A DNA stretch of 64,000 nt from Cupriavidus gilardii (GTDB lineage Bacteria > Pseudomonadota > Gammaproteobacteria > Burkholderiales > Burkholderiaceae), in the NCBI RefSeq assembly GCF_008801915.1, contig NZ_VZOV01000014.1, positions 62,001 through 126,000 on the forward strand, written 5' to 3'. Shown piece after piece: positions 8,605-62,085 of this stretch. Under the pieces are notes generated by a model, which was given only the letters and a program-made list of their open reading frames with translations, searched no databases and was not told where the DNA came from. The position numbers and the translations under genes were made by a program. The stretch's first letter is position 1. Each line of letters starts with the position of its first letter.

Positions 8605-8635
8605 AGGCGGCGCGTCTCGGCGCGAGGACGCTGCG

Positions 8636-9526: not shown

Positions 9527-9553
9527 GATCGGCTCCTGCTGCGAAAGCCGGGC

Positions 9554-9585
9554 AGCATAGACCCTGACGTGCACGTCAGGGTCAA
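9554..9585 (-). promoter_or_regulatory. MerR-type promoter/operator of the methyltransferase gene
   Basis: On the minus strand a -35 TTGACC (9585-9580) is followed by a 19-20 nt spacer and a -10 TATGCT (9559-9554). The spacer carries a perfect 22-bp palindrome (9561-9582; half-site ACCCTGACGTG). An over-long spacer filled by a dyad is the hallmark of MerR-family activation, and the ACCCTGACGT half-site resembles those of TipA-type regulators. The start codon lies 28 nt downstream. Confidence 0.8.
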
Positions 9586-9672
9586 CCCCCGCACACGTGG
9601 CGGGTGCCGTCATGTCATGGCTTGAACTGCTTCTCAGCGCCGATTGTCAGCGCCAATTTTCAGCGCCGCCCG

Positions 9673-14144: not shown

Positions 14145-14283
14145 GCGGATTGCCAGCTGCCCTGCCCGGGGGCACGGCGAATCGCCACGGTGCACGTCGT
14201 GTGTTTTTTGGCAGGCGTTCGCCCTGTCATGGGGCATCCCGACCCGGCGGCCGGACGAGCAGGCGTGCCGCGGCGCAGCATGC

Positions 14284-14300
14284 CATAGCCCAGCCCTATG
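14284..14300. promoter_or_regulatory. LysR-type box 2 (ATAG-N7-CTAT)
   Basis: This second CATAG-N7-CTATG dyad sits 156 bp from the first and 83 bp before the CocE-type hydrolase ATG. The pair probably binds the LysR regulator encoded just downstream of the hydrolase at 16354; that link is by proximity. Confidence 0.55.
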
Positions 14301-14382
14301 TCCCCATCGACATTTCGTCTTTCCGAGGCCCGGGGGCCGCTGCTTACCATTGCCGCAAACCACTGACTTCAACGCAAGATTC

Positions 14383-16218
14383 ATGTCCGATATCGATCTC
14401 CGCGGCAATGCCTGGAAAACGCCGGCCAGCGCTTATCTCGAAACGCGCCCTTCGCGCTATGCCATCCCGGATAGCCCGCTGTCCTGCCATGTGACGATGC
14501 GCGACGGATGCCGGCTTGCCGTCGATGTCTTCGTGCCGCAGCCGCTGGAGGCCGAAGATTCGCCGGCCAGCTATCCCACCATCGTTGTCTTCACGCCGTA
14601 TTTCCGCCGTTTCCGGCTGCGCGAGCCCGGCGCCGAGCCGAGCCCCAACACCGCCAAGTACCGCGATGCCTTCGTGCCCAAAGGCTACGCGGTGGTGGTG
14701 GTCGACGTCCGCGGCACCGGTGCAAGCTTCGGCACGCGCGATGCGCTGCGCTCGCCGACAGAGCGCGACGACTATTTCGAGATCGCGGACTGGATCGTGG
14801 CGCAGCCCTGGTCCAACGGCCGCATCGGTTCGACCGGCATCTCGTACCTCGGTGCGGCCGCCTGCTTCCTGGCCAGCACGGGCCATCCCGCGGTCAAGGC
14901 GATCGCGCCGCTGTTCGCGGTCTCCGATATCTACAGCGAGCAGCTGTACCCGGGCGGCTTGCTGTCCAAGGTCTGGGTACAGGCCTATGACGAACTGATG
15001 GTCGCGCTCGACCAGGACGACCGCGCGCTGCTGGCCCGCTATCCCTACTTCAACGATCCACGCTTCGATGGCCCCGAACGCGTCGACGCGGACACCGACG
15101 GCAGCCTGGTGCAGGCGGCCATCGAGCAGCATCGCAACAACTTCGCGCTGGCCGATCTGGCGCCGGAGTTCGCCTTCCGCGATGGCGCCACGCAGCACGA
15201 TCCGGCGCTCGATTCGGGCAGCTGCAGTCCTTACCGCTATCTCGAGGGCATTGCGCAGGATGTCGCGGTGTATTCGGTCTCGGGCTGGTACGACGGCGGC
15301 GGCTATGCGAATGGCGCGATCACGCGCTTCCTGTCGCTGCCCAATCACGACAGCCGGCTGCTGTTGGGCCCGTGGGACCACGGTGCGCGCACCAACATCT
15401 CGCCGTGGCGCAGCCACGCCGCGTCGGACTTCCCGATGCTGGCCGAGGTATTGCGCTTCTTCGATCATCATCTGATGCAATTGCCCACCGGGCTCGAGCA
15501 GGAAGCACGCGTCCACTACTACAGCGTGCACGACGAGCAATGGCATGCAGCGCCGACGTGGCCGCCGGCCGAGCGCGCGCAGCGGCTTTACTTGACCGCC
15601 GATGCCGAAAGCCTGTCGCCCGCGTGTCCCGCCACGGAATCGGACCGGGACACGATGGCCAGCTTCAATTGGTCAACCGGCCGTCAAACCCGCTATGAGC
15701 GGCTTGGCGCGGCCAATATCGAGGACTACTACCCCGACTGGAGCGAACGGCAGCGGGATCTGCTGTCCTTCGACGGCGCGGTACTGACGGCGCCGCTGTC
15801 GATCGCCGGCCATGTCGTACTGAACATCGGCCTCGCGGGCTCGCAGCCCGATGCCGCGCTGCATGTGTTCCTGTCCGAGGTCGAGGCGTCCGGCGAAGTG
15901 CGCTACATCACCGAAGGCATGCTGCGCGCGCTGCATCGCAAGACCGCGCCGTGCCCGCCGGAATACCGCACGACCTGGCCCTACCGCACGTTCGCAAAGG
16001 CCGACGCGGCGCGTCTGGTACCGGGGCAGACCGAGCGCCTGCACTTCGCGATGCTGCCCGTCGCCTGGACCCTTGCTGCCGGCAGCCGGCTGCGCCTGTC
16101 GATCGCCGGCGCGGACCGCGGGCATTTTCCGCAGGTGCCGTACGGCCGTCCCCCGCGGTTGTCGATCCGGCTCGGCGGCGAACTGGCGTCGTATCTCGAC
16201 CTGCCGATTCGCGGCTAG
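14383..16218 (+). CDS. CocE/NonD-family serine hydrolase (X-Pro dipeptidyl-peptidase-like)
   Basis: The 611-residue protein has the S15/CocE alpha/beta hydrolase core (about residues 30-330) with nucleophile motif GSTGISYLGAAA, the VDVRGTGASFGT signature, SGWYDGGGY before the acid, and PWDHGAR for the histidine. A C-terminal jelly-roll domain (from about residue 410, with LTAPLSIAGHVVLNI) completes the family layout. These enzymes cleave esters or acyl peptides such as cocaine or cephalosporin esters; the true substrate is unknown. No signal peptide is evident. A LysR gene follows on the same strand. Confidence 0.9.
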   Translation: MSDIDLRGNAWKTPASAYLETRPSRYAIPDSPLSCHVTMRDGCRLAVDVFVPQPLEAEDSPASYPTIVVFTPYFRRFRLREPGAEPSPNTAKYRDAFVPKGYAVVVVDVRGTGASFGTRDALRSPTERDDYFEIADWIVAQPWSNGRIGSTGISYLGAAACFLASTGHPAVKAIAPLFAVSDIYSEQLYPGGLLSKVWVQAYDELMVALDQDDRALLARYPYFNDPRFDGPERVDADTDGSLVQAAIEQHRNNFALADLAPEFAFRDGATQHDPALDSGSCSPYRYLEGIAQDVAVYSVSGWYDGGGYANGAITRFLSLPNHDSRLLLGPWDHGARTNISPWRSHAASDFPMLAEVLRFFDHHLMQLPTGLEQEARVHYYSVHDEQWHAAPTWPPAERAQRLYLTADAESLSPACPATESDRDTMASFNWSTGRQTRYERLGAANIEDYYPDWSERQRDLLSFDGAVLTAPLSIAGHVVLNIGLAGSQPDAALHVFLSEVEASGEVRYITEGMLRALHRKTAPCPPEYRTTWPYRTFAKADAARLVPGQTERLHFAMLPVAWTLAAGSRLRLSIAGADRGHFPQVPYGRPPRLSIRLGGELASYLDLPIRG

Positions 16219-48523: not shown

Positions 48524-48931
48524 TCACGACTGGATGGCGGCCAACATGCCCTTGATCTTCGAGTTCATCACCGTCAGGCCGAACTCGTACTTGACCGAGT
48601 TGTCGGCGAATGCCACCCGCTCGGTGTCCATCTCGACGGTGTTGCCGTCGATGCTCGATTGCATCGGAATCCGGTACGCCAGCTCGAACTCGCTGGCGAC
48701 CGAGGCCTGGCCCGGCAGATGGCGCGTCGACGTGGTGGACAGCGACACGCCGTTGGCCTGCCGCCCCCGCTCGACCGATTCGGACAGCTGGCTGGCAAAG
48801 TCGAAGTCGCGGGCCTTGAAGCCCGGCGTATCGGCATTGGCGATATTGGCGGCGATCACCGATTGCCGCTGATTGCGCAAGTTCAACGCTTCCTGCTGGA
48901 AACGGAACGACGCATCGAGTCTGTCGATCAT
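48524..48931 (-). CDS. flgB: Flagellar proximal rod protein FlgB
   Basis: The 135-residue protein shows the FlgB pattern [41 protein letters not shown] (in part) and a C-terminal rod helix ([22 protein letters not shown]). It heads the leftward flgBCDEFGHIJ set, driven by a FlhDC-type promoter in the flgB-flgA gap. Confidence 0.95.
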
Positions 48932-49045
48932 GTCCGTATCTCGCTATCTCTCGCTATCGAGGAACGTGTGACGAAACCACGCGCCCCTGCGTCGGCAAAG
49001 GCGTGAGGGCGGCCGGGAATGGACCCGGCCTTCTTTACGGGTGCC

Positions 49046-49138
49046 ATCTTAGGTGGCGGCTGGCCAGTGCAATCGGATGAATAGGACGGGGAAACCTGCG
49101 CATTTCAGGCGGAGGGCGCGCGTGCCGCTGCCTACAAT
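49046..49138. promoter_or_regulatory. Divergent FlhDC-dependent promoters of flgB and flgA
   Basis: A FlhDC-type box with half-sites AATAGG (49080-49085) and CGCATTT (49099-49105) lies in the 323-bp gap. Leftward, a -10 TAAGAT (49051-49046) is 28 nt from the left half-site. Rightward, a -10 TACAAT (49133-49138) is 28 nt from the right half-site. The same 28-nt geometry occurs before flhF and flhB, so one box probably drives both flgB and flgA operons. The rest of the gap shows nothing else. Confidence 0.7.
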
Positions 49139-49254
49139 GAGGTCTCGTTGCCGGACGCCCACTGCCTGCACGCGCGCCTGCCCCCACGCGCGCGCCTGCG
49201 TCCGGCCCGCCGCCTTGTTTCCTGACTTTCCATTTCGCCTGCCGGGATCACGCC

Positions 49255-50019
49255 ATGTTTCGCACGCACCGATCGGCACCACGCCGCCTCGCCTTGCTGG
49301 CGCTCTGCGCGGCGCTGCCATGCACCGCCGCGCTGGCGGCGACCGCCACGACATCGGTCACGACATCTGCCTCGCCACCCCAGGCTGCACAGCCGTCGCC
49401 GTTCACCGACGATCCGGTGCGCGTCGCGGTCGAGCAGTTCCTGCTGCGCGAGACCGCCGGGCTGCCGGGCAAGGCCAGTATCCAGGTGGTGCCGCCCTCG
49501 GGCGGACGCGCGCGCGAATGCGTGGCGCCGCAGCCGTTCCTGCCGGGCGGCGCGGCGGCGTGGGGCCGGGTTTCGGTTGGCGTGCGCTGCGGTGGCGAGC
49601 GGCCGTGGACCCGTTACGTGCAGGCACGCGTCTCGGTGGTGGCTGATTACTATGTCGCCGCGCATGCGCTGGCGCCGGGCCAGCCGATCGGACCGGCCGA
49701 TCTGGAACGGCGCGAGGGCGATCTTGCCGGCCTGCCGCGCGCGGTCGTGACCGACCCGGCGCAGCTCCAAGGCGCGGTCACGGCCAACCGGATCGCGGCC
49801 GGCTCGCCGCTGCGGATGGACATGGTCCGGAAGGCGATCGCGGTCAAGCAGGGTCAGATGGTCGCGGTGACCATCGAAGGCGAGGCCTTCCAGATTCGCA
49901 GCGAGGGCAAGATTCTCGCGGACGCCGCTCCGGGCAACACCGTGCAGGTCCGGCTCAAGAGCGGGCAGGTCGTCAACGGGCTGGTGCGGGACGCCGACAC
50001 GGTGGTGCTGCAGCAATAG
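49255..50019 (+). CDS. flgA: Flagellar P-ring assembly chaperone FlgA
   Basis: The 254-residue precursor has a signal peptide (cleaved near AALAATATT), then an N-terminal region with VEQFLLRETAGLPG and the SAF domain from about residue 125 (VVADYYVAAHALAPGQPIGPADLERREGDLAGLP, in part), followed by AVKQGQMVAVTIEGEAFQIRSEGKILADA (in part). It helps FlgI assemble the P ring in the periplasm. It is divergent from flgB and shares the FlhDC box. Confidence 0.93.
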   Translation: MFRTHRSAPRRLALLALCAALPCTAALAATATTSVTTSASPPQAAQPSPFTDDPVRVAVEQFLLRETAGLPGKASIQVVPPSGGRARECVAPQPFLPGGAAAWGRVSVGVRCGGERPWTRYVQARVSVVADYYVAAHALAPGQPIGPADLERREGDLAGLPRAVVTDPAQLQGAVTANRIAAGSPLRMDMVRKAIAVKQGQMVAVTIEGEAFQIRSEGKILADAAPGNTVQVRLKSGQVVNGLVRDADTVVLQQ

Positions 50020-50091
50020 CCGCCGACATGGCCCCGGCCTCAGCCCCAGCCATCGCCACAGCGTCGTTACAGCGTGTCACAATTCGCGTCC

Positions 50092-50118
50092 TAAAGTTTG
50101 GCGACGCCCCGCCGTTAA
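50092..50118 (+). promoter_or_regulatory. Sigma-28 (FliA) promoter of flgMN
   Basis: TAAAGTTT (50092-50099), an 11-nt spacer and GCCGTTAA (50111-50118) match the FliA consensus in all but one position. It lies 27 nt before the flgM start, so FliA drives its own anti-sigma factor. Confidence 0.88.
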
Positions 50119-50145
50119 GCTGAGCAAACCCAGCAAGGACATCCC

Positions 50146-50454
50146 GTGAAGATCCACCAATCGACCCTGCCGCGCACCGGTGAAGGTGCCGCTGAAAGCA
50201 CTGGACGCACCGCGTCGAGCCCCGTGCCGGGCGCCGCATCGTCCGCGAGCGGCCTGACCATGAGCCCCCTCGGCAGCCAGGTGCGCGATATCGGCTCGCG
50301 CCTGGCCCATGAGGCCGACGGCGACATCGATCAAGCCAAGGTGGACGAGATCCGCCAGGCCATCGCCGAAGGGCGCCTGAAGATGGACCCGAGCAAGATC
50401 GCCGACGGTCTGCTGGCCACGCTGCGCGAATTGACGCAGGACGGCGGCCGCTGA
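50146..50454 (+). CDS. flgM: Anti-sigma-28 factor FlgM
   Basis: The 102-residue protein starts at a GTG with AAGGA upstream. The N-terminal half is low-complexity and likely disordered; the C-terminal helices (KVDEIRQAIAEGRLKMDPSKIADGLLATL, in part) are the FliA-binding FlgM core. It inhibits FliA until the hook is finished and FlgM is exported. It is preceded by a near-perfect sigma-28 promoter and followed by flgN. Confidence 0.95.
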   Translation: MKIHQSTLPRTGEGAAESTGRTASSPVPGAASSASGLTMSPLGSQVRDIGSRLAHEADGDIDQAKVDEIRQAIAEGRLKMDPSKIADGLLATLRELTQDGGR

Positions 50455-50525
50455 TCAGGCTGAACCGGCTGATCTCACTGAACCCGTAGACCCTACCCCC
50501 ACCGATTTCCTTCGACTTCGCGCCC

Positions 50526-50984
50526 ATGAGCCAAGCCCTGATCGCCAGCATGCAGCGGGAAACGCAAGCCATCGCGGCCTTCGTCGATGCCCTGCAGCAG
50601 GAACGCACCGCGATTCGCGCCGGCGACTTCCTGTCGCTGGGCGAGCTGGTGCAGAACAAGCAGGAACTGGCGCAACAGATCGCGCAGCTCGGCACCGCAC
50701 GCCAGGCGCAGATGGCCGCGCTCGGCATCCGCGTCGGCAGCGGCCGGCAACTGGTGGGATTGCATATCGACGAAGGCGTCGCCGCCGCGTGGCGCACGCT
50801 GGTACTGACCGCGCGCGGCGCGGCGGAGGCCAATACGCTGAACGGCGCCGTAGTGTCGGCGCATCTGGAATACACGCAGGACGCGTTGCAGACGCTGCGC
50901 CAGCGCGGCGACACGGCCACCGTCTACGGCCGCAATGGCCGGGCACAGGCCGGTCCGCGCGGCGTCAGCCTGGCCAGCGGCTGA
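50526..50984 (+). CDS. flgN: Flagellar export chaperone FlgN
   Basis: The 152-residue protein is helical (ETQAIAAFVDALQQERTAIRAGDFLSLGELVQNKQELAQQI, in part) with the terminal YGRNGRAQAG motif common to FlgN. It binds FlgK and FlgL C-termini for export. It lies 71 bases after flgM. Confidence 0.92.
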   Translation: MSQALIASMQRETQAIAAFVDALQQERTAIRAGDFLSLGELVQNKQELAQQIAQLGTARQAQMAALGIRVGSGRQLVGLHIDEGVAAAWRTLVLTARGAAEANTLNGAVVSAHLEYTQDALQTLRQRGDTATVYGRNGRAQAGPRGVSLASG

Positions 50985-51013
50985 TTTCTCTCTCTGCGGC
51001 GAAGCGACACACC

Positions 51014-51997
51014 TTACGCCGTCGGCTCGACCGTGCTGGCGCGCCTTCCGCGCGCCTCCAGCAGGAAATACCCCACGACCGCCGGCAGCATCGGCAACAG
51101 GTAGTACATCGCCCGATAGGCCAGCAGCGCGGCCAGCAGCGCGTGGTGCGGCACGCGATCGCCCAGCAGCACCACGAACACCGTCTCGAGCACGCCCAGA
51201 CCGGCAGGGATATGCGCGACCGCGCCGGCGATGCTGCCGATCAGCACCACGCCCAGCACGACCAGCAGCGGCACCGACGACGGCAGCAGCGTCTGGATGA
51301 TGGCCGAGATGGTCAGCCAGTTCGTAATCGACAGCGCGCACTGCATCACGGCGAAACGCAGCGGCGGCAGATGAAAGGCATGGCCGCGCACCGTCCATCG
51401 GCGCCGTCTGGCCCTCGCACACGCGACCAGGTACGCGGCGACCACCGCCAGCAGCGCAAATCCCGCGATCTGCAGCAAGGTGGCATTGAGCCCCCATTCG
51501 GGCGGCAGCACCACGGTGCGAGCGGCCAGCACCGCCCCGAGCAGTGCCAGGTAGCCGATCCAGTTGCTGACCACGCCGATGGTATAGACCGACGCAATCT
51601 GTGCGCCCGACAGTCCCGCTCCCGAATAGAGCCGGTAGCGAATCCCCAGGCCGCCCACCAGCGCGCCGAGGTTCAGGTTGAAGGCATAGCTGACGAAGGC
51701 GATCACCAGCACCCGCGGCGACGACAGCCGATGCCGCGCATACCAGCGGCCCAGCAGGTCGAACGCCGAATGCCAGAAATAGCTGAGCACCACCAGCAGC
51801 GCGGCCGGCGTCAGCGTCCGGTAGTCGTATTCCTGCAGCGTGACCCAGACCTCGGCCCAGTCGACCTCGGCCAGCTTCCTGACCACCAGCACCACCACGA
51901 GCGCGACAAAGGCGATGCCCAGTATGCGGCGCACCTGCGCCCAGCGGCTGCGCCGCCGTGTTCTCGTGTGGTGGTCAGTCGCCTGTCGTGCTGTCAT
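51014..51997 (-). CDS. YbhN/UPF0104-type lysylphosphatidylglycerol synthase transmembrane-domain protein
   Basis: The 327-residue protein has about eight membrane segments in the LPG-synthase TM (UPF0104/YbhN) fold: ILGIAFVALVVVLVVRKL, FVSYAFNLNLGALVGGLGIRYRLYSGAGLS (in part), AVAHIPAGLGVLETVFVVLLG and YRAMYYLLPMLPAVVGYFLLE. It lacks the C-terminal aminoacyl-transferase domain. It follows clsB by 82 bases in the same direction, the same gene pair as clsB-ybhN in Escherichia coli, so a phospholipid-linked membrane role is likely. Confidence 0.88.
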   Translation of the reverse strand: MTARQATDHHTRTRRRSRWAQVRRILGIAFVALVVVLVVRKLAEVDWAEVWVTLQEYDYRTLTPAALLVVLSYFWHSAFDLLGRWYARHRLSSPRVLVIAFVSYAFNLNLGALVGGLGIRYRLYSGAGLSGAQIASVYTIGVVSNWIGYLALLGAVLAARTVVLPPEWGLNATLLQIAGFALLAVVAAYLVACARARRRRWTVRGHAFHLPPLRFAVMQCALSITNWLTISAIIQTLLPSSVPLLVVLGVVLIGSIAGAVAHIPAGLGVLETVFVVLLGDRVPHHALLAALLAYRAMYYLLPMLPAVVGYFLLEARGRRASTVEPTA

Positions 51998-52079
51998 CTG
52001 GTCGCCGTGATCGATTTGCCGTCGTCGTATTGCCGCGTCGTATTGCCGTCATCCTTCCGCGTGATCCCTGTGCCGTCAT

Positions 52080-53300
52080 CTATTCCGCTCCGCCGGCGCC
52101 CCGCTTCAGCACCGGAAATCGCCAGGGCCGGCGCGGCGGCTCGGCGGTAGCGACCACGAGCTTCGGCGTGTGGGCGGGCAGCCAGCCGGCCCATGCGGGG
52201 AAGCGGCGCAGGAAGTGGAACATCAGCGTGGTCGCCGCCAGCTGCAGCGGCGCGCGGCGCGTCTGGCGATTCGGCGGAATCTCGCGGCAGGCATTGGCCA
52301 TCAGCGCGTCGAGGTTCTCGCGCAGGCCACGCGCGAAGCCGGCGTCCCGGATCACCAGGTTGGCTTCCATATTCAGCGACAGGCTCAGCGGATCCAGGTT
52401 GCTGGAGCCGACGGTGGACCAGTCGCGGTCGATCACCGCGACCTTGCCGTGCAGCGGCCGCTCGCAATATTCGAAGATGCGCACGCCGGCGTCCTGCAGA
52501 TGGGCATACAGCATGTCGGCCATCCGCTTGACCCACAGCATGTCGGGATTGCCCTGCAGGATCAGGCGCACGTCGACGCCGCGCTGGGCCGCCTCGCAGA
52601 TCGCGTGCAGCACGCGATAGCCCGGCAGAAAATAGGCGTTGGCGATCACCACCTGATGCCGCGCGGCGCGGATCGCCTGCAGGTACTCCCATTCGATATC
52701 GGTCGGATGCGCGTCGTTGTCGCGTGTGACCAGCCACGCGGCCATATTGCCGGCCGGCGCCGGCGGCGGGACCGCCGGCACCTCGACGTCGCCCGGCGGC
52801 AGCGTCTGCACGAGGAAGCGATGCACCTCGTGGGCGACCGGTCCCTCGACCTCGACCGCATAATCCTGCTTGGCCTGCGGGCCATGGTCGGTCAGGTGCT
52901 GCGCGGAGAAGTTGATGCCGCCGATGAAGGCGATGCGTCCGTCGATCGCCACCAGCTTGCGATGCAGCCGGCGGAACAGATTGGTCCGCACACCGAGCAG
53001 CCGCCGGCGCGGCGCGAAGATATGGAAACGCACGCCGGCCGCGACCATGCCGGCAACGAACGCGGGCGGCAGATCGGGCGAGCCGTAGCCGTCGACGGTG
53101 ATCGCCACATGGACGCCGCGTTTGGCCGCGGCAATCAACGCTTCGCGCAGCGCCACGCCGACGCGGTCGTCGAACAGGATGAAGGTTTCCAGCAGAACGC
53201 TGGTCTGCGCGGCGGCGATCGCGGCAAAGACGCGCGGGAAATATTCGTCGCCGTTTTCCAGCAGGCGGATGCGATTACCGCTGGTTCGGTTGGGGCTCAT
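52080..53300 (-). CDS. clsB: Cardiolipin synthase B (phospholipase-D family)
   Basis: The 406-residue protein has two HKD motifs: HRKLVAIDGRIAFIGGIN and HGKVAVIDRDWSTVGSSNLD. The N-terminus GNRIRLLENGDEYFPRVFAAIAAA is the ClsB start and there are no long N-terminal membrane segments, unlike ClsA. It makes cardiolipin by phosphatidyl transfer at the inner membrane. The start at 53300 gives the family length; 53342 would add a short leader. It sits as a non-flagellar insert within the flagellar cluster, paired with the YbhN-like gene. Confidence 0.92.
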   Translation of the reverse strand: MSPNRTSGNRIRLLENGDEYFPRVFAAIAAAQTSVLLETFILFDDRVGVALREALIAAAKRGVHVAITVDGYGSPDLPPAFVAGMVAAGVRFHIFAPRRRLLGVRTNLFRRLHRKLVAIDGRIAFIGGINFSAQHLTDHGPQAKQDYAVEVEGPVAHEVHRFLVQTLPPGDVEVPAVPPPAPAGNMAAWLVTRDNDAHPTDIEWEYLQAIRAARHQVVIANAYFLPGYRVLHAICEAAQRGVDVRLILQGNPDMLWVKRMADMLYAHLQDAGVRIFEYCERPLHGKVAVIDRDWSTVGSSNLDPLSLSLNMEANLVIRDAGFARGLRENLDALMANACREIPPNRQTRRAPLQLAATTLMFHFLRRFPAWAGWLPAHTPKLVVATAEPPRRPWRFPVLKRGAGGAE

Positions 53301-53393
53301 TTCGATGTCTCGCTGCCAGATTCTCCATGGCAACAAGCACATTCAATGCCACCCGCCGCGGGCCGGCAAGTCCACCGCCAATCACCTCGTCAC

Positions 53394-53411
53394 GACGGCG
53401 GCTTCGCCGTC
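53394..53411. terminator. Short hairpin between flhE and clsB
   Basis: Arms GACGGCG/CGCCGTC with a 4-nt loop lie in the 139-bp gap downstream of flhE. There is no T-tract; it may weakly end the flhFG-fliA-flhE transcript. Confidence 0.3.
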
Positions 53412-53439
53412 ACCTTGCCGCCTTCGCGGCGCCCGCCAT

Positions 53440-53910
53440 TCAGCGATAGCTGACCGTGATCTGGCTGGCCTGCCCTTGCAGCACGGGCGTCAACGGCCCC
53501 TGTCCCGGAATGCGGAACGCAAACACGAAACCCTTGTCGGCATCGTCGCCGCGGAAGGCATCGGTCTTGCCCTCGGGCCCGGGCAGCAGCACGCAACGGT
53601 TGGCATTACAGAGATAGGCTTGCAGATTTGGCGGTGGCACGCGAGCAAAACGGTAACGCCAGCGCACTGCGGTGATCACCCCTTCGGCCTGCGCCAGATA
53701 GCCGCTGGGCAGGATAGGCGCCGACAAGGCCCGCACGCCGCGGCCGTACAGCGCCGGCGCGGACACCGATGCGGTCCATGCATGGCGCGAGTCGCCGCCG
53801 AAATTGGTGTGCATCAGCGACGAAGCCGCGACGGCAGGCGAGATCACCGCCACGGCCGCCGAGGCGATCGCCACGATCGACCCGAACGCGCGACCTGCCA
53901 TGCGGGCCAT
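53440..53910 (-). CDS. flhE: Flagellar protein FlhE
   Basis: The 156-residue precursor has a signal peptide and aligns by eye with enterobacterial FlhE: the AVRWRY segment, the cysteine pair in LCNANRCVLL, and the C-terminal IPGQGPLTPVLQGQASQITVSYR (in part), which parallels VPGGGRLIPALKVQSNQVIVNYR (in part). FlhE is periplasmic and helps prevent leakage through the flagellar export gate. The ATG shares a base with the fliA stop (TGATG), indicating coupling. Its place after fliA rather than after flhA differs from the enteric flhBAE order. Confidence 0.85.
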   Translation of the reverse strand: MARMAGRAFGSIVAIASAAVAVISPAVAASSLMHTNFGGDSRHAWTASVSAPALYGRGVRALSAPILPSGYLAQAEGVITAVRWRYRFARVPPPNLQAYLCNANRCVLLPGPEGKTDAFRGDDADKGFVFAFRIPGQGPLTPVLQGQASQITVSYR

Positions 53911-54626
53911 CACAGCAGCCCGCGCAACTGGCTGCGCAGCCGGTTGATGGCCTGGCTGCGGATCTGGCAGACGCGCGATTCGGTGACCTCGAGCACCGCG
54001 CCGATCTCGCGCAGGTTCAGCTCCTGGTCGTAGCACAGCGACAGCACCAGCTTTTCGCGCTCGGGCAACCGTTCGATCGCCCGGATCAGCGCGCCCCGCA
54101 TGCCGCTTTCCATCAGCAGCGTCAGCGGATTGCCGTCCTCGCTGACCGTCAGGTGGCGATCGAGGAAATCCTCTTCGCCGGAGCGCTCGAAGTCCTCGTA
54201 ATGCAGCAGCTGGCAGCCATAGACCTCGTTGAGCATGCTCTGGTATTCGTCCAGCGGCATCTCCAGTTCTTCGGCAACCTCGGAATCCAGCGGCGTGCGG
54301 CCGAGCTTCTGCTCCAGCGCGCGCACGGTCCGCTCGATCCGGCGCGTCGACTGGCGCAGGCTGCGGGACTGCCAGTCGTTGGCGCGTACCTCGTCGAGCA
54401 TCGCGCCGCGGATACGCTGGCTGGCATAGGTCTCGAAGCGCGCGCCGTGGGTGTCTTCATAGCGGCGGGCGGCGTCGAGCAGGCCGATCATGCCAGCCTG
54501 GATCAGGTCGTCCAGTTGCACGCTGGCCGGCAGCTTCGCCGCCAGTTGCAGGGCAATGCGCCGTACCAGCGGCGCATGGGTCTGGACGGTGTCGGTCTGT
54601 TCGAGCTTTCCCTGGATCGTGTACAT
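53910..54626 (-). CDS. fliA: RNA polymerase sigma factor FliA (sigma-28)
   Basis: The 238-residue sigma factor has region 2 (LDDLIQAGMIGLLDAARRYEDTHGARFETYASQRIRGAM, in part), region 3 (DWQSRSLRQSTRRIERTVRALEQKLGR, in part) and region 4 (ERLPEREKLVLSLCYDQELNLREIGAVLEVTESRVCQI, in part). It directs transcription from TAAAGTTT-N11-GCCGATAA promoters such as those before flgM and flgK here. It overlaps flhE and follows flhG by 19 bases. Confidence 0.96.
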   Translation of the reverse strand: MYTIQGKLEQTDTVQTHAPLVRRIALQLAAKLPASVQLDDLIQAGMIGLLDAARRYEDTHGARFETYASQRIRGAMLDEVRANDWQSRSLRQSTRRIERTVRALEQKLGRTPLDSEVAEELEMPLDEYQSMLNEVYGCQLLHYEDFERSGEEDFLDRHLTVSEDGNPLTLLMESGMRGALIRAIERLPEREKLVLSLCYDQELNLREIGAVLEVTESRVCQIRSQAINRLRSQLRGLL

Positions 54627-54645
54627 GGTGGAATTCTCGCGAGTG

Positions 54646-55482
54646 CTAGCAGGCCATCGCCGATGCGGGCAGCGCGGCGGTGGCGACGGCGGTCGCGGCG
54701 CCAGCGGCGGGCATCGGTTCGGGATCGGGTGAAAGAGGCCAGCCAGCGATGCTGACGGCAAGTCGGCGCAGCATGGCGGTGGCCGGCGCGCCAGGGAAAG
54801 CATCGACGACGCCCCGCGACAGCGCCGTGCCGCGCGCGACCAGCGGGTCGGCCGGCAGCACGCCGGCGCAGCGCGCCTGCACGCCGAGATACTGGCCCGC
54901 GGTGCGCGCCAGGTTGCCGGCGATCGCCATCGCCGACGCTTCGCTGGCGGCGCAGTTGACCACCAGTTCGAAATGCCGGCAGGCGTAGCGATGATGCAGC
55001 CGCTTGATGCAGGCATAGGCGGCGGTCAACGATTCGCGTTCGGGCCGCATCACCACCACCAGGTTGTGCGCGGCGGCGGAAAAGCGCGACAACGCGCCAT
55101 CGGCGCCGAGGCGCGCATCGCTGACGACGGTGCGGAAGTCATGCAGCGCCTGCAGCGGGCCCCACGCCGACGCATCGCCGGGCAGCAGCGCCGGCATGCC
55201 GGCTTCGCGGCGACCGACCGCGGCATCGACCGCGACGGCGCCGGCGAGCACCTGGGCCAGCGTGCCCGGCGGCGAGGCACCGGCAAGGCGCGTCGCGCGC
55301 GCGTGCGACAGGTCTTCATCGACCAGCAGCACGCGCTCGCCCTGCAATGCCAGCGCATGAGCGAGGCCCAGCGCGACCGTGGTCGCACCGGCGCCCGGCT
55401 CGCAGCCGAACACGGCGATACGGCGGGTGGCGCGGGGCGCCAGCATGCGGCGCAGGCTTTCGGCCTGATCGACGGCAAGCAT
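54646..55482 (-). CDS. flhG: Flagellar number regulator FlhG (FleN/YlxH, MinD-like), degenerate P-loop
   Basis: The 278-residue protein has the MinD/ParA fold (RIAVFGCEPGAGATTVALGLAHALALQGERVLLVDEDL, in part) and sits between flhF and fliA, the position of FlhG. The deviant Walker A motif reads GCEPGAGATT (about residues 26-35), lacking both the signature and P-loop lysines, so ATP hydrolysis may be altered. Family members count or position flagella by controlling FlhF. A TTG at 55488 is an alternative start with better-spaced GGAG. Confidence 0.85.
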   Translation of the reverse strand: MLAVDQAESLRRMLAPRATRRIAVFGCEPGAGATTVALGLAHALALQGERVLLVDEDLSHARATRLAGASPPGTLAQVLAGAVAVDAAVGRREAGMPALLPGDASAWGPLQALHDFRTVVSDARLGADGALSRFSAAAHNLVVVMRPERESLTAAYACIKRLHHRYACRHFELVVNCAASEASAMAIAGNLARTAGQYLGVQARCAGVLPADPLVARGTALSRGVVDAFPGAPATAMLRRLAVSIAGWPLSPDPEPMPAAGAATAVATAALPASAMAC

Positions 55483-55488
55483 GTTCAA

Positions 55489-58044
55489 TCAGTCTCCAAG
55501 CGCGGCCAGGTCGAACTTCGCCGACGCGTTCTCTCGTGTGCCCGCGGCGTTCTGCGTCATCCGCTGGGCCAGATGCTGCGCGGATTCGGGCAGCGCCGGC
55601 GCCGGCAATTCGGCGTCCGTGAGGGCATGATTCGCGGCCGGGGTCGCGGCGCGGATGGCTTCGACGGCCTCGCCTGCGCCGCGCTTGTCGTTCGACGCGC
55701 GAGCCGACCCGACCGCGGCGGCGTTGCGGCCCGGGAAGTTCTCGAGCACGTCGAGCAGGGCCAGCAGGCGGCCCAGTCCCTCGAGCAGCGCGGCGGCGCC
55801 CGGTACCGCATCCCTGGCGGCCGACCGGCCTGCCTGGCCGGCCAGCCCCGCCAGACAGTCGATCGCCGCCTGTGCCGGCGCATGGGCCAGCCGCAACGCG
55901 GTCATGCCGGCCTGCAGCGCGACCAGCGCGTCGACGTCGAACGCTTGCTGCGACGTGTCGGCCGGGCGGCCGAGATGGTCCAGCGCATGGCGCAGCGTGC
56001 GGCATTGCTGCGCCGCGGCCTCGCCCCAGCGTGCCCACTGGGCGAGCTGCGCACCGGCGCCGGCGAGCGCCGGATCGGCCAGCAGATAGTCGACGGCGAG
56101 TGTCTGGCCGCTGTCGCGCTCGATGGTGCGCGCCACCAGCAGCACGGCCTCGATGCCGCCTTCGGTGGCGGTGCCGCGCGCGGCACGGGTCTGCCCTTCG
56201 ATCACGCGCACCCTGGTCTGCGCGACCCATTGAACGGCCTCGCGGTCGCGCCAGCGCAGTTCAGCCTGCGCATGGAAGGTCAGCGTGTCGGCCAGCGCAT
56301 CGAGCTTCCATGCGGTGCCGTCGCACAGCACGCGCGTGCTCTTGCGTGCTGCCGCCAGCCAGCGTTCGCCGCTCGACTGCCAGCGTTGCAGTGTGGCGCC
56401 GGCCGGCATCGTGTCGAGCAGATGGACGACGGTACGGCGCGCGGCCAGCGCGGCGCGCCAGTCGGCCATTTCGGTATCCCAGCCGCCGGCCTGCGGCGTG
56501 CGCGCCAGCGGCGTCACGGTGGCCATCAGCGGCATGCCGTCGCGGTCGCCGAGCCACAGCGTGTGCTGCCACGGCTGTGGCGCGCGGCGGCCCGGCACCG
56601 TGCAGGGCAGCGTCACCGACGCGGACAGCACGAAGTGTTCGCAATGCCTGCTGGCATCCTGGCAGACCGCGTCGCGGACCTGGCGCACCAGAGGACGCAG
56701 TTCGGCCGGCTCCGCCTGGCCCTGGCCACGGCCAGCCCACAGCTCGCGCAGCAGCGCAAAGCCATAGGGGCCATCGCGCAGCGCGTTGACGCAGGCGCCG
56801 ACGGCATGACCGCTGTCGGCGATCGAGCGCAGCACGTCGTGCGCTTCGTTGCGCGCGCCGTGGCCCGCGTCGACCACGTCGTCGCCTGCTGGCGCCGCCA
56901 GCGCGCGGCGCGCGGCCTGCGCATCGGCGAAGACGGAGCCGCGCCGCGGCATCAGGAAGGCGCGCTCGACCAGCGCGTCGCCGCGCGCCAGTTCCAGATG
57001 CTCCGGCACGCGCTGGCCGGTCGACGCGTAGAACACCGGCAGCCGGTGCCGGATCACGACATCGAGCACCGAGCCCAGATGGGTGGCCTCGTCGAGCTTG
57101 CTGATGATGCAGCCGTCGATGCCGGCGCCTGGCGCGGCGTCGTGGCGGTAGGCATGCACGACCTCGTTGAGCGTATCGCCGTGGCTGGCGCCGTTGAGCA
57201 GCAGCACCCGCTGCACCGGCGCCGGCGCACCCGCCAGCATCGCGATCTGCTCGGACAGATTGCGATCGCGCTGGCTCATGCCGACGGTATCGATGATCAC
57301 CAGGTGCTTCTGCGACAGCGCGCCCAGCGCGAGACGCAGATCCGACGCATCCTTGACCGCGTGCACCGGCACGCCGAGGATGTCGCCGTAGATGCGCAGC
57401 TGCTCGTGCGCGCCGATCCGGAAGGTGTCGGTGGTCAGCAGCGCAAGCTTGTCGGCGCCGTGCTTCAGCACGAAGCGCGCGGCCAGCTTGGCGGTGGTGG
57501 TGGTCTTGCCGACCCCGGTCGGGCCGACCAGCGCCAGCACGCCGCCCTGGCCGAACAGCGCGTCCTCGTCGGCCAGTACCGGCACCTTGCTGGCGATCTC
57601 CTGGCGGATCCAGCCCATCGCGGCGGGGCGGTCATGGCCAGCCGGCAGCCGCGCCAGCAGCGTGCGTGCCAGTTGCGCGGAAAAGCCCGCGCCCACCAGC
57701 CATTCGAACAGCGACTCGCGCAGCGGATCCGAGGCGGCGGCCGGCACGGCGGGGACCGCGATGCCTGACAGCTGCCGCTCGATCAGCGCGCGCATCGTTT
57801 GCAGTTCGCCACGAATGCCGTCGATATGCTCCACGGCCGCGACCTGGATCGGCTCGCGCACCGGTGGCTGGAACCGGGGCGCGCTCTCGGAGATCGCGCC
57901 CAGATCGGTATCGCGCATCGCCACGATCTCGACGCCGCCGTCGACGGTGCGGTTGGACAGCACCACGGCGTCCGGCCCCATGGCTTCGCGCACCTGGCGC
58001 AAGGCTTCGCGGCCGTTGGCCGCCACAAATTTGGCTACGCTCAT
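55489..58044 (-). CDS. flhF: Flagellar SRP-type GTPase FlhF with about 480-residue C-terminal extension
   Basis: The 851-residue protein starts MSVAKFVAANGREALRQVREAMG (in part), the B-domain start of FlhF. The NG domain follows with G1 GPTGVGKTTTT (174-184), TTDTFRIGAHEQL, G3 DTVGMSQRD (252-260), SKLDEATHLG and STGQRVPEHL, ending near residue 375. FlhF proteins are usually about 400-500 residues. Here the rest is an Ala/Arg-rich region without recognised domains. FlhF sets the polar or defined site of flagella. A FlhDC-type promoter lies upstream. Confidence 0.92.
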   Translation of the reverse strand: MSVAKFVAANGREALRQVREAMGPDAVVLSNRTVDGGVEIVAMRDTDLGAISESAPRFQPPVREPIQVAAVEHIDGIRGELQTMRALIERQLSGIAVPAVPAAASDPLRESLFEWLVGAGFSAQLARTLLARLPAGHDRPAAMGWIRQEIASKVPVLADEDALFGQGGVLALVGPTGVGKTTTTAKLAARFVLKHGADKLALLTTDTFRIGAHEQLRIYGDILGVPVHAVKDASDLRLALGALSQKHLVIIDTVGMSQRDRNLSEQIAMLAGAPAPVQRVLLLNGASHGDTLNEVVHAYRHDAAPGAGIDGCIISKLDEATHLGSVLDVVIRHRLPVFYASTGQRVPEHLELARGDALVERAFLMPRRGSVFADAQAARRALAAPAGDDVVDAGHGARNEAHDVLRSIADSGHAVGACVNALRDGPYGFALLRELWAGRGQGQAEPAELRPLVRQVRDAVCQDASRHCEHFVLSASVTLPCTVPGRRAPQPWQHTLWLGDRDGMPLMATVTPLARTPQAGGWDTEMADWRAALAARRTVVHLLDTMPAGATLQRWQSSGERWLAAARKSTRVLCDGTAWKLDALADTLTFHAQAELRWRDREAVQWVAQTRVRVIEGQTRAARGTATEGGIEAVLLVARTIERDSGQTLAVDYLLADPALAGAGAQLAQWARWGEAAAQQCRTLRHALDHLGRPADTSQQAFDVDALVALQAGMTALRLAHAPAQAAIDCLAGLAGQAGRSAARDAVPGAAALLEGLGRLLALLDVLENFPGRNAAAVGSARASNDKRGAGEAVEAIRAATPAANHALTDAELPAPALPESAQHLAQRMTQNAAGTRENASAKFDLAALGD

Positions 58045-58300
58045 GTTTCGCGACCCTGGTTTCAGCGGGATCCAGCGGCACCGCCGCTCGTGGCAATCAT
58101 TCGATGTTCGGTTGTCCGGCACCGCGGCATCGCTGGCCGCGATGGTGTCGGCATGCGGCCGACGGGCACAGGCCGGTCTGTCGTCAGGTGGTGGCGACGG
58201 GCGTCTCGCGCAGGGAGGAGAGAGCGGGACGTTGCGCGGATCGCCGCACTCGGCCATCGGCACCACGTGCGAAGCGGCAGCCGGCCTCTTCGACGTGTCG

Positions 58301-58370
58301 ATTATGCGAGCGGGGGTGTCGTGCTATTGGGCTGAATAGGCGGGGGATTGCGGCGCTATTTGGGCGATGA
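58301..58370 (-). promoter_or_regulatory. FlhDC-dependent promoter of flhF-flhG-fliA-flhE
   Basis: The box has half-sites AATAGG (58335-58340) and CGCTATTT (58354-58361) followed by GGGCGATG. The minus-strand -10 CATAAT (58306-58301) is 28 nt from AATAGG. The same sequence occurs before flhB. It lies in the 467-bp flhF-flhA gap (58045-58511), which otherwise contains only the flhA terminator hairpin. Confidence 0.75.
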
Positions 58371-58430
58371 CGGCGCCGCACGTCCTCGTCTTCGGGTTAA
58401 CGGCAGCGGCCGGCAATTATTTCGGCCCAT

Positions 58431-58468
58431 GAAGAGAAACAGGCGACAGGGAGTGCTCCTGTCGCCTG
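58431..58468 (-). terminator. Rho-independent terminator of flhBA
   Basis: Perfect 11-bp arms CAGGCGACAGG/CCTGTCGCCTG (7-nt loop, 58440-58468) are followed on the minus strand by TTTCTCTTC. It lies 43 bases beyond the flhA stop, separating flhBA from the flhF operon. Confidence 0.8.
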
Positions 58469-58511
58469 CGATCGCACCGCGGCTGCGGCGCCGCCCCCCC
58501 GACGACCGGAC

Positions 58512-60599
58512 TCAGCCCGCGCCGCCGATCATCGCGGTAATACGGATATTGCGGTTGTCCGGCACCTCGGCGTGCGACAGCACCCTGAGCTGCGGCATGG
58601 TCCGCCGCAGGAAGCGGGACAGCAACGGCCGCAGCGCATGCGGGACCAGCAGCACCGGATCGAGACCCATCTGCTCCTGGCGCGCCACCGCGGCCTGCGC
58701 CTGCTGCACCAGCGCATCGGCCAGGCCGGGCTCGATGCTGCCGCCCGAGTTCAACGCCTGCGACAGCACGCGCTCGAGGCCGGCGTCGAGCCCGATCACC
58801 TGCAGGTCGGCGCCATTGGGGAACCACTGCTGCGTGATCGCGCGGCCCAGCGCCATCCGCACCAGCGCGGTCAGCTCGTTGGGGTCGCTGATCTTCGGCG
58901 CATGTTCGGCGATCACATCGAGGATCGTGCGCATGTCGCGGATCGGCACGCTTTCGTCGAGCAGGTTCTGCAGCACCTTCTGCAGCGACGTCAGCGTGAT
59001 CGTCTTCGGCACCAGATCCTCGGTCAGCTTCGGCGAATCCTTGGCGATACGGTCCAGCAGCGCCTGCACTTCCTGCCGGCCCAGCAGCTCGGCCGCGTGC
59101 TGATGGATCAGATGGTTCAGGTGCGTGGCGACCACGGTGCTGGCGTCGACCACGGTGTAGCCCAGCGCCTGCGCCTGTTCCTTGATGCCGCTGTCGATCC
59201 AGACCGCCGGCAGGCCGAAGGCCGGATCGCGCGTCGGCGTGCCGGGCAGCGTGCCGCTGACCTGGCCCGGATCGATCGCCATCCATTGGCCGGGCACGGC
59301 CTCGCCGTAGCCGATCTCGACGCCCTTCAGCGTGATCCGGTAGGCGTTGGGCTTCAGCTCCAGGTTGTCGCGGATATGGACGACCGGCACCAGGAAGCCG
59401 ACCTCCTGCGCGACCTTCTTGCGGATGCTCTTGATCCGGCCCAGCAGCTCCCCGTTCTGCGCGCGGTCGACCAGCGGAATCAGCCGGTAGCCGACTTCCA
59501 TGCCGAGCGGATCGACCAGCGTGACGTCATCCCAGGTCGCCTCGGTATTTTCGTTGGCCAGCGCCGGCGCACGCTCTTCCCGCTTGGCGGTCTGCCTGGC
59601 GGCCAACTTGCGCTTGCTGACATAGCTGCCGAACCAGACCAGACCGCCGGCCAGCAGCAGGAAGGCGACGTGCGGCATGCCCGGGATGATGCCCAGCAGG
59701 CCGATGATGCCGCCGGTCAGATACAGCACGCGGGGATCGGAGAACAGCTGACCGGTCAGCTGCTCGCCGACGTCCTGATCGTTCGAGACGCGCGAGACGA
59801 TGACACCGGCGGCGGTCGAGATCACCAGCGCCGGAATCTGCGCGACCAGGCCGTCGCCGATGGTCAGCAGCGTGTAGTTGCGCACCGCCGTCGAGAAGTC
59901 GAGGTCGTGCTGGACCATGCCGACCACCAGGCCGGCAAACACGTTGATGAACATGATCAGCAGGCCGGCGATCGCGTCGCCGCGCACGAACTTGCTGGCC
60001 CCGTCCATCGCCCCGTAGAAATCCGACTCCTGCGCGACCTCGGCGCGGCGCTTGCGCGCGCCCTCCTCGTTGATCAGGCCGGCGTTCAGGTCCGCGTCGA
60101 TCGCCATCTGCTTGCCGGGCATCGCGTCCAGCATGAAGCGCGCGCCGACCTCGGCGATCCGGCCCGCGCCCTTGGTGATCACCATGAAGTTGATCACCAC
60201 CAGGATCGCGAACACCACGATGCCGACCGCGAAGTTGCCGCCGACCAGGAAGTGGCCGAAGGCCTCGATCACCTTGCCGGCCGCGTCGGGGCCGGTATGG
60301 CCCTCGAGCAGCACCACGCGGGTGGAGGCGACGTTCAGCGACAGCCGCAGCAGCGTCGAGAACAGCAGCACTGCCGGAAACGCGGCGAAGTCCAGCGGAC
60401 GCTGCGTGTACATGCCGACCAGCAGCACCATGATCGACAGCGCGATGTTGAAGGTGAACAGCAGGTCGAGCAGGAATGGCGGCAGCGGCAGCACCATCAT
60501 GCCGAGGATCATCACGATCAGCAGCGGCCCGGCCAGTGCCTTCAGCTGGCCGGCGGACTGCCCGCCGGGCAGTCGGAACAGCGAGTTCAATGCATTCAT
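58512..60599 (-). CDS. flhA: Flagellar export-gate protein FlhA
   Basis: The 695-residue protein has about eight N-terminal membrane segments, the FHIPEP signature region (LRLSLNVASTRVVLLEGHTGPDAAGKVIEAFG, in part; DAMPGKQMAIDADLNAGLI) and a large cytoplasmic domain (from about residue 330, ending IRITAMIGGAG). It conducts export of flagellar subunits together with FlhB and FliPQR. Its ATG overlaps the flhB stop by four bases. Confidence 0.97.
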   Translation of the reverse strand: MNALNSLFRLPGGQSAGQLKALAGPLLIVMILGMMVLPLPPFLLDLLFTFNIALSIMVLLVGMYTQRPLDFAAFPAVLLFSTLLRLSLNVASTRVVLLEGHTGPDAAGKVIEAFGHFLVGGNFAVGIVVFAILVVINFMVITKGAGRIAEVGARFMLDAMPGKQMAIDADLNAGLINEEGARKRRAEVAQESDFYGAMDGASKFVRGDAIAGLLIMFINVFAGLVVGMVQHDLDFSTAVRNYTLLTIGDGLVAQIPALVISTAAGVIVSRVSNDQDVGEQLTGQLFSDPRVLYLTGGIIGLLGIIPGMPHVAFLLLAGGLVWFGSYVSKRKLAARQTAKREERAPALANENTEATWDDVTLVDPLGMEVGYRLIPLVDRAQNGELLGRIKSIRKKVAQEVGFLVPVVHIRDNLELKPNAYRITLKGVEIGYGEAVPGQWMAIDPGQVSGTLPGTPTRDPAFGLPAVWIDSGIKEQAQALGYTVVDASTVVATHLNHLIHQHAAELLGRQEVQALLDRIAKDSPKLTEDLVPKTITLTSLQKVLQNLLDESVPIRDMRTILDVIAEHAPKISDPNELTALVRMALGRAITQQWFPNGADLQVIGLDAGLERVLSQALNSGGSIEPGLADALVQQAQAAVARQEQMGLDPVLLVPHALRPLLSRFLRRTMPQLRVLSHAEVPDNRNIRITAMIGGAG

Positions 60600-61738
60600 G
60601 CGCGGCTTTCCGGTACGGCAAGTTCATCGGGCACCGGCAGGCCGGTCGGGGCCTCGGGCAGCGGCCCGTTGGCGTGGTGCCAGTGTTTCAGTTGGTAGAC
60701 CCAGGCCAGCACCTCCGCCACCGCGGTGTACAGCCCGGCAGGGATCTCGTGGCCCAGTTCGACATGGCGGTGCAGCGCACGCGCCAGCGGCGGTGCCGAC
60801 AGGATCGGCACGCGGTGCTCGGCGGCCAGCTCGCGAATGCGCGCGGCGACCTCCTCGGTGCCCTTGGCAACCACGCGAGGCGCGCCCATGCGGCCTTCCT
60901 CGTAGCGCAGCGCCACGGCGAAATGGGTGGGGTTGGTGACCACCACGTCGGCCTTCGGCACCTCGGCCATCATCCGGCGCCGCGCCATCTGGCGTTGCAG
61001 CTGACGGATCCGGCCCTTGACGTGCGGGTTGCCCTCGCTTTCCTTGTGCTCCTGCTTGACCTCTTCCTTGGTCATGCGCAGCTTCTTGAAGTAGTCCCAG
61101 AATTGCCAGGGCACGTCGATCGCGGCCACCAGCAGCAGCGACCCGGCGGCCAGCGCGCAGCACAGCAGCACCAGCTCGAGCAGGCGCAGCAGCGCCTCGT
61201 GCACCGGCGCATTCATCAGCGCCACGGCGTCCGGCAGATGGCGCCACAGCATCCAGAAGCCGATGCCGCCGACCAGCAGCGACTTGGCGACGGCCTTGGT
61301 CAGTTCGACCAGCGACTGCGCCGAGAACAGCCGCCCCAACCCCTTGAGCGGGGACAGCCTGGAGAAATCGGGCAGCAGCGACTTGGTCGAGAACAGCCAG
61401 CCGCCGAGCACCATCGGCGCCAGCAGCGCGGCCACGGCGAACAGCAGCAACAGGGGCAGCACGCCGAGCAGCGATTCCCACACCAGTTGCCCAAAGCCGG
61501 ACAGCATGCGGGCCGGATCGTGCGCTACGGCGGGCTCGAACGACAGCGCGGCCCGCATCACGGTATCGAGCTTGCGGCCGAGCATGCCCCCCAGGCCCCA
61601 CAGGCCGGCCACGCCGGCCATCAGCATCACGAAGGTGCCGAGCTCGCGCGAACGCACCACCTGCCCCTCCTCGCGCGCCTTTTCCAGGCGCCGGGGTGAG
61701 GCGGGTTCGGTTTTCTCGAGATCGCTTTCTTCGGACAT
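60596..61738 (-). CDS. flhB: Flagellar export specificity switch FlhB
   Basis: The 380-residue protein has four membrane segments in its first half and the self-cleavage motif NPTH at residues 269-272, the same position as in Salmonella, followed by FAVALRYE. It switches export from rod/hook to filament substrates after autocleavage. The ATG at 61738 starts the conserved SEESDLEKTEPASPRRLEKAREEG (in part). It heads flhBA, driven by a FlhDC-type promoter. Confidence 0.97.
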   Translation of the reverse strand: MSEESDLEKTEPASPRRLEKAREEGQVVRSRELGTFVMLMAGVAGLWGLGGMLGRKLDTVMRAALSFEPAVAHDPARMLSGFGQLVWESLLGVLPLLLLFAVAALLAPMVLGGWLFSTKSLLPDFSRLSPLKGLGRLFSAQSLVELTKAVAKSLLVGGIGFWMLWRHLPDAVALMNAPVHEALLRLLELVLLCCALAAGSLLLVAAIDVPWQFWDYFKKLRMTKEEVKQEHKESEGNPHVKGRIRQLQRQMARRRMMAEVPKADVVVTNPTHFAVALRYEEGRMGAPRVVAKGTEEVAARIRELAAEHRVPILSAPPLARALHRHVELGHEIPAGLYTAVAEVLAWVYQLKHWHHANGPLPEAPTGLPVPDELAVPESRA

Positions 61739-61782
61739 GGCCGCTCCGTGGCGAAGCGGCATGCCGCCCTTCGACGGGGTCG

Positions 61783-61851
61783 ATTATCGGAGCGGGGGAG
61801 CACCGCCATTAGGGGAAATAGGCGGGGGATTGCCACGCTATTTGGCCGATG
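61783..61851 (-). promoter_or_regulatory. FlhDC-dependent promoter of flhBA
   Basis: Half-sites AAATAGG (61816-61822) and CGCTATTT (61836-61843), then GGCCGATG, match the FlhDC consensus. The minus-strand -10 GATAAT (61788-61783) is 28 nt from AATAGG, as before flhF and flgB. It lies in the 347-bp gap 61739-62085 between divergent flhB and the F-box-like gene; no promoter for the latter was recognised. Confidence 0.75.
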
Positions 61852-62085
61852 GCAAGGGGGGCGCGGGCGCGCAGCGCCGCGAGAACGGTTCGATCACAGA
61901 GGTTAACGGCGGTCCTGCGCGATTCTTTCGGGATGGCGGCGCACCGGCGAGCGATTGCGGTAAATCCAGGGCAATTCGGAAAGAGCCGGTGATGGCATGC
62001 CGCTATGGTGCCCCGCTCCATCCCTCGCCCGGCCTGGGCAGGCCCCACCGCGGCGAGACAGCACGGCGACACGACGGAGGCAACC

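Follow-up and report, generated by a model that had tools for sequence, protein, structure and literature searches.

A 64,000-nucleotide (nt) stretch of the Cupriavidus gilardii genome (the window, on contig 14 of a 5.79-Mb genome) carries flagellar genes together with three related DNA boxes that are very probably operators for FlhDC, the flagellar master switch. On the minus strand, read from right to left, lie flhB, flhA, flhF, a flhG-like gene, fliA and flhE. At the other flagellar interval, flgA, flgM and flgN run rightward and flgB runs leftward. One box precedes flhB, one precedes flhF and one lies between flgB and flgA (Table 1).

The flhB and flhF boxes are nearly the same. The sequence AATAGGCGGGGGATTGC occurs twice in the window, identical at 58335 and 61817 on the plus strand, with no further copy within four mismatches on either strand of the window. 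Two nucleotides after each copy comes CGCTATTTGG(G/C)CGATG. Read on the transcribed strand, both promoters have the form CATCG(G/C)CCAAATAGCG-N13-CCTATT-N28-(G/C)ATAAT. The box between flgB and flgA is a diverged copy, AATAGGACGGGGAAACC at 49080; it reads GAAATGCG-N13-CCTATT-N28-TAAGAT toward flgB and CGCATT-N28-TACAAT toward flgA. The original prediction, made from the letters of the window alone, had proposed the common sequence, the diverged copy and a constant 28 nt from AATAGG to the minus-strand -10 element. Direct reading bears out all of these, the spacing being 28 nt at flhB, flhF and flgB. It had also proposed a mirrored -10 element at 28 nt in front of flgA. This is right if counting on the plus strand runs from CGCATT (49099-49104) to TACAAT (49133-49138), but the distance is 27 nt from GCATTT; the answer depends on the hexamer chosen as the half-site. 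None of the three box intervals holds a consensus sigma-70 promoter (-35/-10 pair). In the leader between the flgB -10 element and flgB, a seven-pair terminator-like hairpin lies at 49011-49030 on the plus strand, opposite to flgB transcription.

Table 1. Coordinates of flagellar genes and predicted regulatory elements in the window.
Feature	Position	Strand	Basis
FlhDC box (predicted), flhB promoter, CATCGGCCAAATAGCG ... CCTATTTCCCCTAATG	61807..61851	-	conserved in 39/39 Cupriavidus-type loci; joint best consensus match in window
-10 GATAAT of flhB	61783..61788	-	28 nt from half-site
FlhDC box (predicted), flhF promoter, copy of flhB box	58325..58369	-	alignment and promoter tree
-10 CATAAT of flhF	58301..58306	-	28 nt from half-site
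Shared FlhDC box (predicted) between flgB and flgA	49070..49110	.	conserved in 23/23 loci with both genes; other genera
-10 TAAGAT of flgB	49046..49051	-	28 nt from half-site
-10 TACAAT of flgA	49133..49138	+	28 nt from CGCATT
Sigma-28-like site GAAA-N15-GCCGTTAA upstream of flhB box	61903..61929	-	pattern match; one of 2 genome-wide
Sigma-28-like site GAAA-N15-GCCGTTAA upstream of flhF box	58397..58423	-	pattern match; one of 2 genome-wide
Putative sigma-28 promoter TAAAGTTT-N11-GCCGTTAA just upstream of flgM	50092..50118	+	pattern match
Terminator-like hairpin between flhA and flhF promoter	58439..58469	-	12 pairs and T-rich tail
ATG aligning with flhB start codon	58255..58257	-	relic inside flhF leader (alignment)
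flhB	60596..61762	-	Pfam Bac_export_2
flhA	58512..60599	-	Pfam FHIPEP
flhF	55489..58044	-	SRP54 GTPase; conserved start MSVAKF at 58044
flhG-like ParA/MinD-type ATPase	54646..55488	-	weak Pfam matches (best two below cut-off) and position
Open reading frame with fliA (sigma-28)	53910..55016	-	sigma region 2 starts near 54587
Open reading frame with flhE	53440..54036	-	within flagellar cluster
flgB	48524..48931	-	Flg_bb_rod and gene order
flgA	49255..50019	+	protein-family match

How much of this could be chance? The pattern CCAAATAGCG-N13-CCTATT, with up to three mismatches allowed, has 12 matches in 5.79 Mb, and its reversed control also has 12. Only flhB and flhF match without a mismatch anywhere in the genome; the other ten all have three, and beyond the two perfect sites this search yields background only. 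Identity over 17 nt is weak evidence by itself because 22 17-mers repeat within the window. The strong evidence for the sites is conservation.

We compared 39 Cupriavidus-type loci, the window included, using 38 of 43 fetched loci; the five non-Cupriavidus loci (L051, L053, L054, L055 and L057) were excluded from the flhB count. A search with FlhF gave 38 near relatives; the records of 36 name Cupriavidus, and the other two read Ralstonia sp. and Burkholderiaceae bacterium. All 39 loci have the flhB box and a (G/C)ATAATC -10 element, 28 nt apart in 37 (27 in L023, 29 in L052). In 16 of them flgA and flgB were not both found within the stretch examined; the remaining 23 all have the shared box. 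Toward flgB the spacing is 28 nt in 22 of the 23 (27 in L025), and toward flgA it is equal in 22 of the 23. The spacings at flhB were read by eye; the script's tally is ambiguous at runs of T.

A sequence-only profile was built from 48 of the 67 distinct sites in the alignment. Within the genus it finds a match in 57 of 60 genomes, and in a family sample in 92 of 150. Outside the genus the matches (78 of 136 genomes) are weak, at most 33 bits, and some of those family-sample matches with E up to 0.05 will be chance. Of the non-genus loci, 14 of the 16 best (L103-L118) have their match between flgA and flgB; the two others, L107 and L113, are without a match to the query proteins.

The arrangement is familiar from Escherichia coli, where the class 2 promoters dependent on FlhDC are those of flgAMN, flgBCDEFGHIJ, flhBAE, fliE, fliFGHIJK and fliLMNOPQR. 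The target operons are the same here, and so is the 28-nt spacing at three of them: strain K-12 reads TTTATT-28-TAAGCT at flgB, GCTATT-28-TACAAT at flgA and CCTTAC-28-CATCAT at flhB, with half-sites and -10 elements picked by eye rather than taken from mapped starts. The flgA -10 element is TACAAT in both genomes. At K-12 fliL the spacing is ambiguous, GTCTTT-28-GATAAT being obtained by eye if GTCTTT is chosen as the half-site; at K-12 fliF no -10 element could be assigned by eye. According to sections of an E. coli study (PMC4183435), a single FlhDC peak in chromatin immunoprecipitation lies between the divergent flgAMN and flgBCDEFGHIJ operons, both of which depend on FlhDC, and some FlhDC sites serve two divergent operons. 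Since E. coli shows both, the 28-nt rule and the use of one box in two directions are known class 2 layout. The proposal that the flgB/flgA box serves two directions is supported by its conserved geometry, in a layout already known from E. coli.

The original prediction had further called the match to the enteric FlhDC consensus good. That is true of two boxes. Scored out of 26 against the enteric consensus, with spacers of 10-13 allowed, no place in the window exceeds the 21 reached by both flhF and flhB, and the next unrelated place reaches 19. The flgB/flgA box lies within background at 17, compared with 23 for its enteric counterpart. As a detector of the flgB/flgA, fliL and fliE/fliF sites the scan was rejected, none of them rising above background. 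It is a blunt tool, because the flhB, fliE/fliF and fliL intervals of E. coli itself score only 19-20. What identifies the predicted flgB/flgA box is conservation and the comparison with E. coli, not its match to the consensus.

A search of the whole genome for further sites and for the regulator itself had been proposed as a check, and we carried it out. Both regulator genes are on the window's contig, about 11 kb past the window end: flhD at 137483-137785 (151.5 bits, 3.6e-44) and flhC at 136908-137414 (292.5 bits, 3.1e-87), each with a curated cut-off of 27. The genes motA, motB and cheA come next. At locus L058, a DUF4088 gene (14192-14971, minus strand) lies beside flhDC on the same strand. 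The three window sites score 63, 61 and 55 bits, high by construction, as members of the profile's training set. The next match in the genome, C26:47458 (18 bits, E 0.0116), lies immediately before fliL, which fliM follows; the match after that has 10 bits. Within a 3.3-kb locus around fliE and fliF, the best matrix site falls in the interval between the two genes and reads CCTATT-28-GATCAT toward fliF. A single FlhDC switch over four operons had been claimed: flhD and flhC are present and the sites are conserved, but the regulon is probably wider, with candidate boxes at fliL and fliE/fliF. Near fliA, the genome-wide profile search gave no match. In E. coli, FlhDC acts on fliA through a promoter of that gene's own (fliAZY), whereas in this genome the gene has no profile box and follows flhF and flhG. 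It may therefore depend on the flhF transcript.

Why should flhF have a box of its own? The alignment of the regions upstream of flhB and flhF suggests an answer. Their likeness does not stop at the box; it starts at GAAA-N15-GCCGTTAA, takes in the box, the -10 element and TGCCGCTTCG, and ends at the flhB ATG. The box and its 28-nt spacing are real, but the flhF site is a copy of the flhB promoter and not an operator independent of it. Such a copy precedes flhF in five of the 39 Cupriavidus-type loci: the window, L015, L016, L017 and L018. No flhB-like promoter lies between flhA and flhF in the other 34, and no site is found there in the five non-Cupriavidus loci examined. In a matrix scan of the flhA-flhF interval these 39 rows range from -27 to -64, and the high scores of the five copies are built in, because the matrix includes them. 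Three strong profile matches on one contig occur in five of the 60 genus genomes, and no third strong match lies on that contig in the other 55. This search is not independent of the locus sample: the five are the window's genome and the genomes of L015-L018. Two genus genomes have a third match of 35 bits off the main flagellar contig (G013:C177:8155 and G039:C81:22738).

The five copies appear to have one origin. In a promoter tree of 10 of the 39 flhB rows and all five flhF rows, they form one branch (support 89/86; 92% of 200 bootstrap trees). All five share a similar junction just before the flhF ATG, CC(G/A)CTGAA(A/T)C(A/C)AGGGTCG; by eye it aligns with the short stretch that parts flhA from flhF in L019 and L020. 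In the FlhA+FlhB tree the window's nearest neighbours are a metagenome-assembled genome, C. cauae and C. gilardii USM5. A C. gilardii group of seven loci holds all five carriers and two loci without the copy. L020, recorded as C. gilardii J11, falls outside this group in the same tree and is without the flhF promoter; its species label may be wrong. The leader of flhF in the window (58045-58266, minus strand) is open in frame up to a GTG at 58266 and holds the flhB-start relic, so FlhF could be longer in this strain. The carriers do not have this open frame in common: upstream of the flhF start it spans 93 codons in the window and 95 in L015 but 61 in L017, 20 in L018 and 1 in L016.

In the window and in L015 (C. 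gilardii USM5), the same kind of terminator-like hairpin lies in the flhA-flhF gap; of 200 shuffles, 1 and 0, respectively, fold as well. In L016 and L017, an opposite-strand open reading frame of about 740 amino acids (aa) lies in the gap between flhA and the flhF promoter. The two frames are similar, and that of L016 (6228-8456, minus strand; 742 aa) has an F-box-like match below cut-off. In L018, from C. respiraculi, a YhgA-like transposase-family gene (Pfam Transposase_31; 8606-9730, plus strand) stands in the same place. Elsewhere in the window's flagellar cluster, between flgN and flhE, 51014-53342 holds a phospholipase-D-like gene and a lysylphosphatidylglycerol-synthase-like membrane gene.

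Burkholderia glumae offers a useful comparison. It has the same gene order, and in the portion of the published account that bears on this (PMC3885665), flhBAFG and fliA are co-transcribed, flhF depends on FlhDC and fliA may have its own promoter. Unlike this arrangement, flhF in the C. gilardii group has a copied promoter, which in the window and L015 stands behind a hairpin. The copied promoter probably separates flhFG-fliA-flhE from flhBA. Given the copy, the hairpin and the co-transcription described for B. glumae, a single operon was probably divided in the C. gilardii group, both parts keeping the same switch.

The copied block begins with an element that resembles a promoter for sigma-28, the product of fliA. 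GAAA-N15-GCCGTTAA, a pattern written from the flhB and flhF sites, matches only these two in the genome (control 0). Compared with TAAA-N15-GCCGATAA, both deviate at -35. Does a sigma-28 promoter stand in tandem with the FlhDC promoter at both genes? We lean toward this possibility, with reservations. The flgM site of the window ends in the same GCCGTTAA; TAAAG is found at flhB in 25 of the 32 loci outside the group of seven; and the L018 flhF copy has TAAA-N16-GCCGATAA. A loose form of the element is present in 30 of 39 flhB regions and in all five flhF copies, with GACGTTAA in L017. That the sites are instead some other conserved element or a relic is a serious contender, somewhat the less probable of the two: GAAA stands in place of TAAA, nine flhB regions lack even a loose match, TAAA-N14-16-GCCGNTAA is no commoner in the genome than its control (3 versus 6) and, in the text of PMC4183435 that covers it, E. 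coli flhBAE has no FliA signal. One of the nine is L015, in which the GCCGTTAA element is missing upstream of flhB (before 6377) and kept in the flhF copy. The sequence upstream of flhB and flhF means that FlhDC may not be the only switch. Passages of the same study describe dual promoters at E. coli fliAZY and fliLMNOPQR that combine sigma-28 with class 2 control; here the possible combination would fall at flhB and flhF instead.

We are confident, from comparison of sequences, that each of the three boxes is a class 2 FlhDC operator and that the flhF promoter was copied as a unit from flhB. Several observations weigh against this. The flgB/flgA score of 17 is equalled or exceeded at 86 places in the window. 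The candidate box at fliL lies 27-30 nt from GAGAAT, the value varying with the point taken within seven consecutive T, and the fliE/fliF site came to light only when that locus was picked out for a scan. Finally, the five carriers are not one clade: approximately unbiased (AU) tests reject their monophyly for FlhB+FlhA (p 0.001), FlhF (0.011) and FlgA+FlgB (0.030), on 16 of 38 tree rows (12 for FlgA+FlgB), L052 being omitted from the FlhA+FlhB tree. A single gain therefore needs either transfer or the loss of the copy by the lineages of L019 and L020.

Other explanations fit less well. The sites might bind a different regulator and merely resemble FlhDC boxes, and the moderate consensus match at flgB/flgA could be read this way. 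We consider this very unlikely: flhDC is present in the genome, no place in the 64 kb fits the consensus better than flhB and flhF, and the E. coli FlhDC targets flgA, flgB and flhB share the geometry. The scattered carriers could also mean that the flhF box arose by convergence. This is the least likely explanation of all, given that the likeness also takes in the leader, the flhB start codon and the sigma-28-like site, all outside the box, and that the copies form one branch with a common junction. A slightly better case, still a poor one, can be made for an ancestral flhF promoter lost in most Cupriavidus, since the group of seven includes two non-carriers and losses or transfer are needed anyway. 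Yet 34 of the 39 loci have no site between flhA and flhF, more losses would be required and B. glumae, in the part of its published account that concerns these genes, transcribes flhBAFG together.

In the mechanism we favor, that of FlhDC operators and a copied flhB promoter, FlhDC would bind the inverted repeat and recruit sigma-70 RNA polymerase to the -10 element 28 nt from the promoter-proximal half-site. Between flgA and flgB, a single operator would serve two outward -10 elements. The flhB unit (sigma-28-like site, box, -10 element, leader and start codon) would have been copied to just upstream of the flhF start, with the hairpin of the window and USM5 lying between flhA and the copy. 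The genes flhF-flhG-fliA-flhE, sigma-28 among them, would probably then be driven apart from flhB-flhA by the same switch. As a history, we find it reasonably probable that this composite module was copied once from flhB to flhF, that it cut the ancestral flhBAFG-fliA operon, that the copy was afterwards lost or passed between species and that unrelated genes came to settle in the new gap.

The promoters themselves are of a known kind; the unexpected part is the duplicated module at flhF. Titles and abstracts among the matches listed in our literature search describe neither FlhDC operators in Cupriavidus nor a duplicated flagellar promoter, which is no proof of novelty. The sites give a base-level picture of predicted FlhDC operators in Cupriavidus, which retains the 28-nt architecture of enteric class 2 promoters. 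If our reading is correct, sigma-28 and the flagellum-placement genes for FlhF and FlhG are governed by a separate copy of the master switch. Nature would then have split an operon by duplicating a promoter, in a circuit that is well understood. As close relatives without the copy exist, the effect of parting sigma-28 and FlhF/FlhG from flhBA is directly testable.

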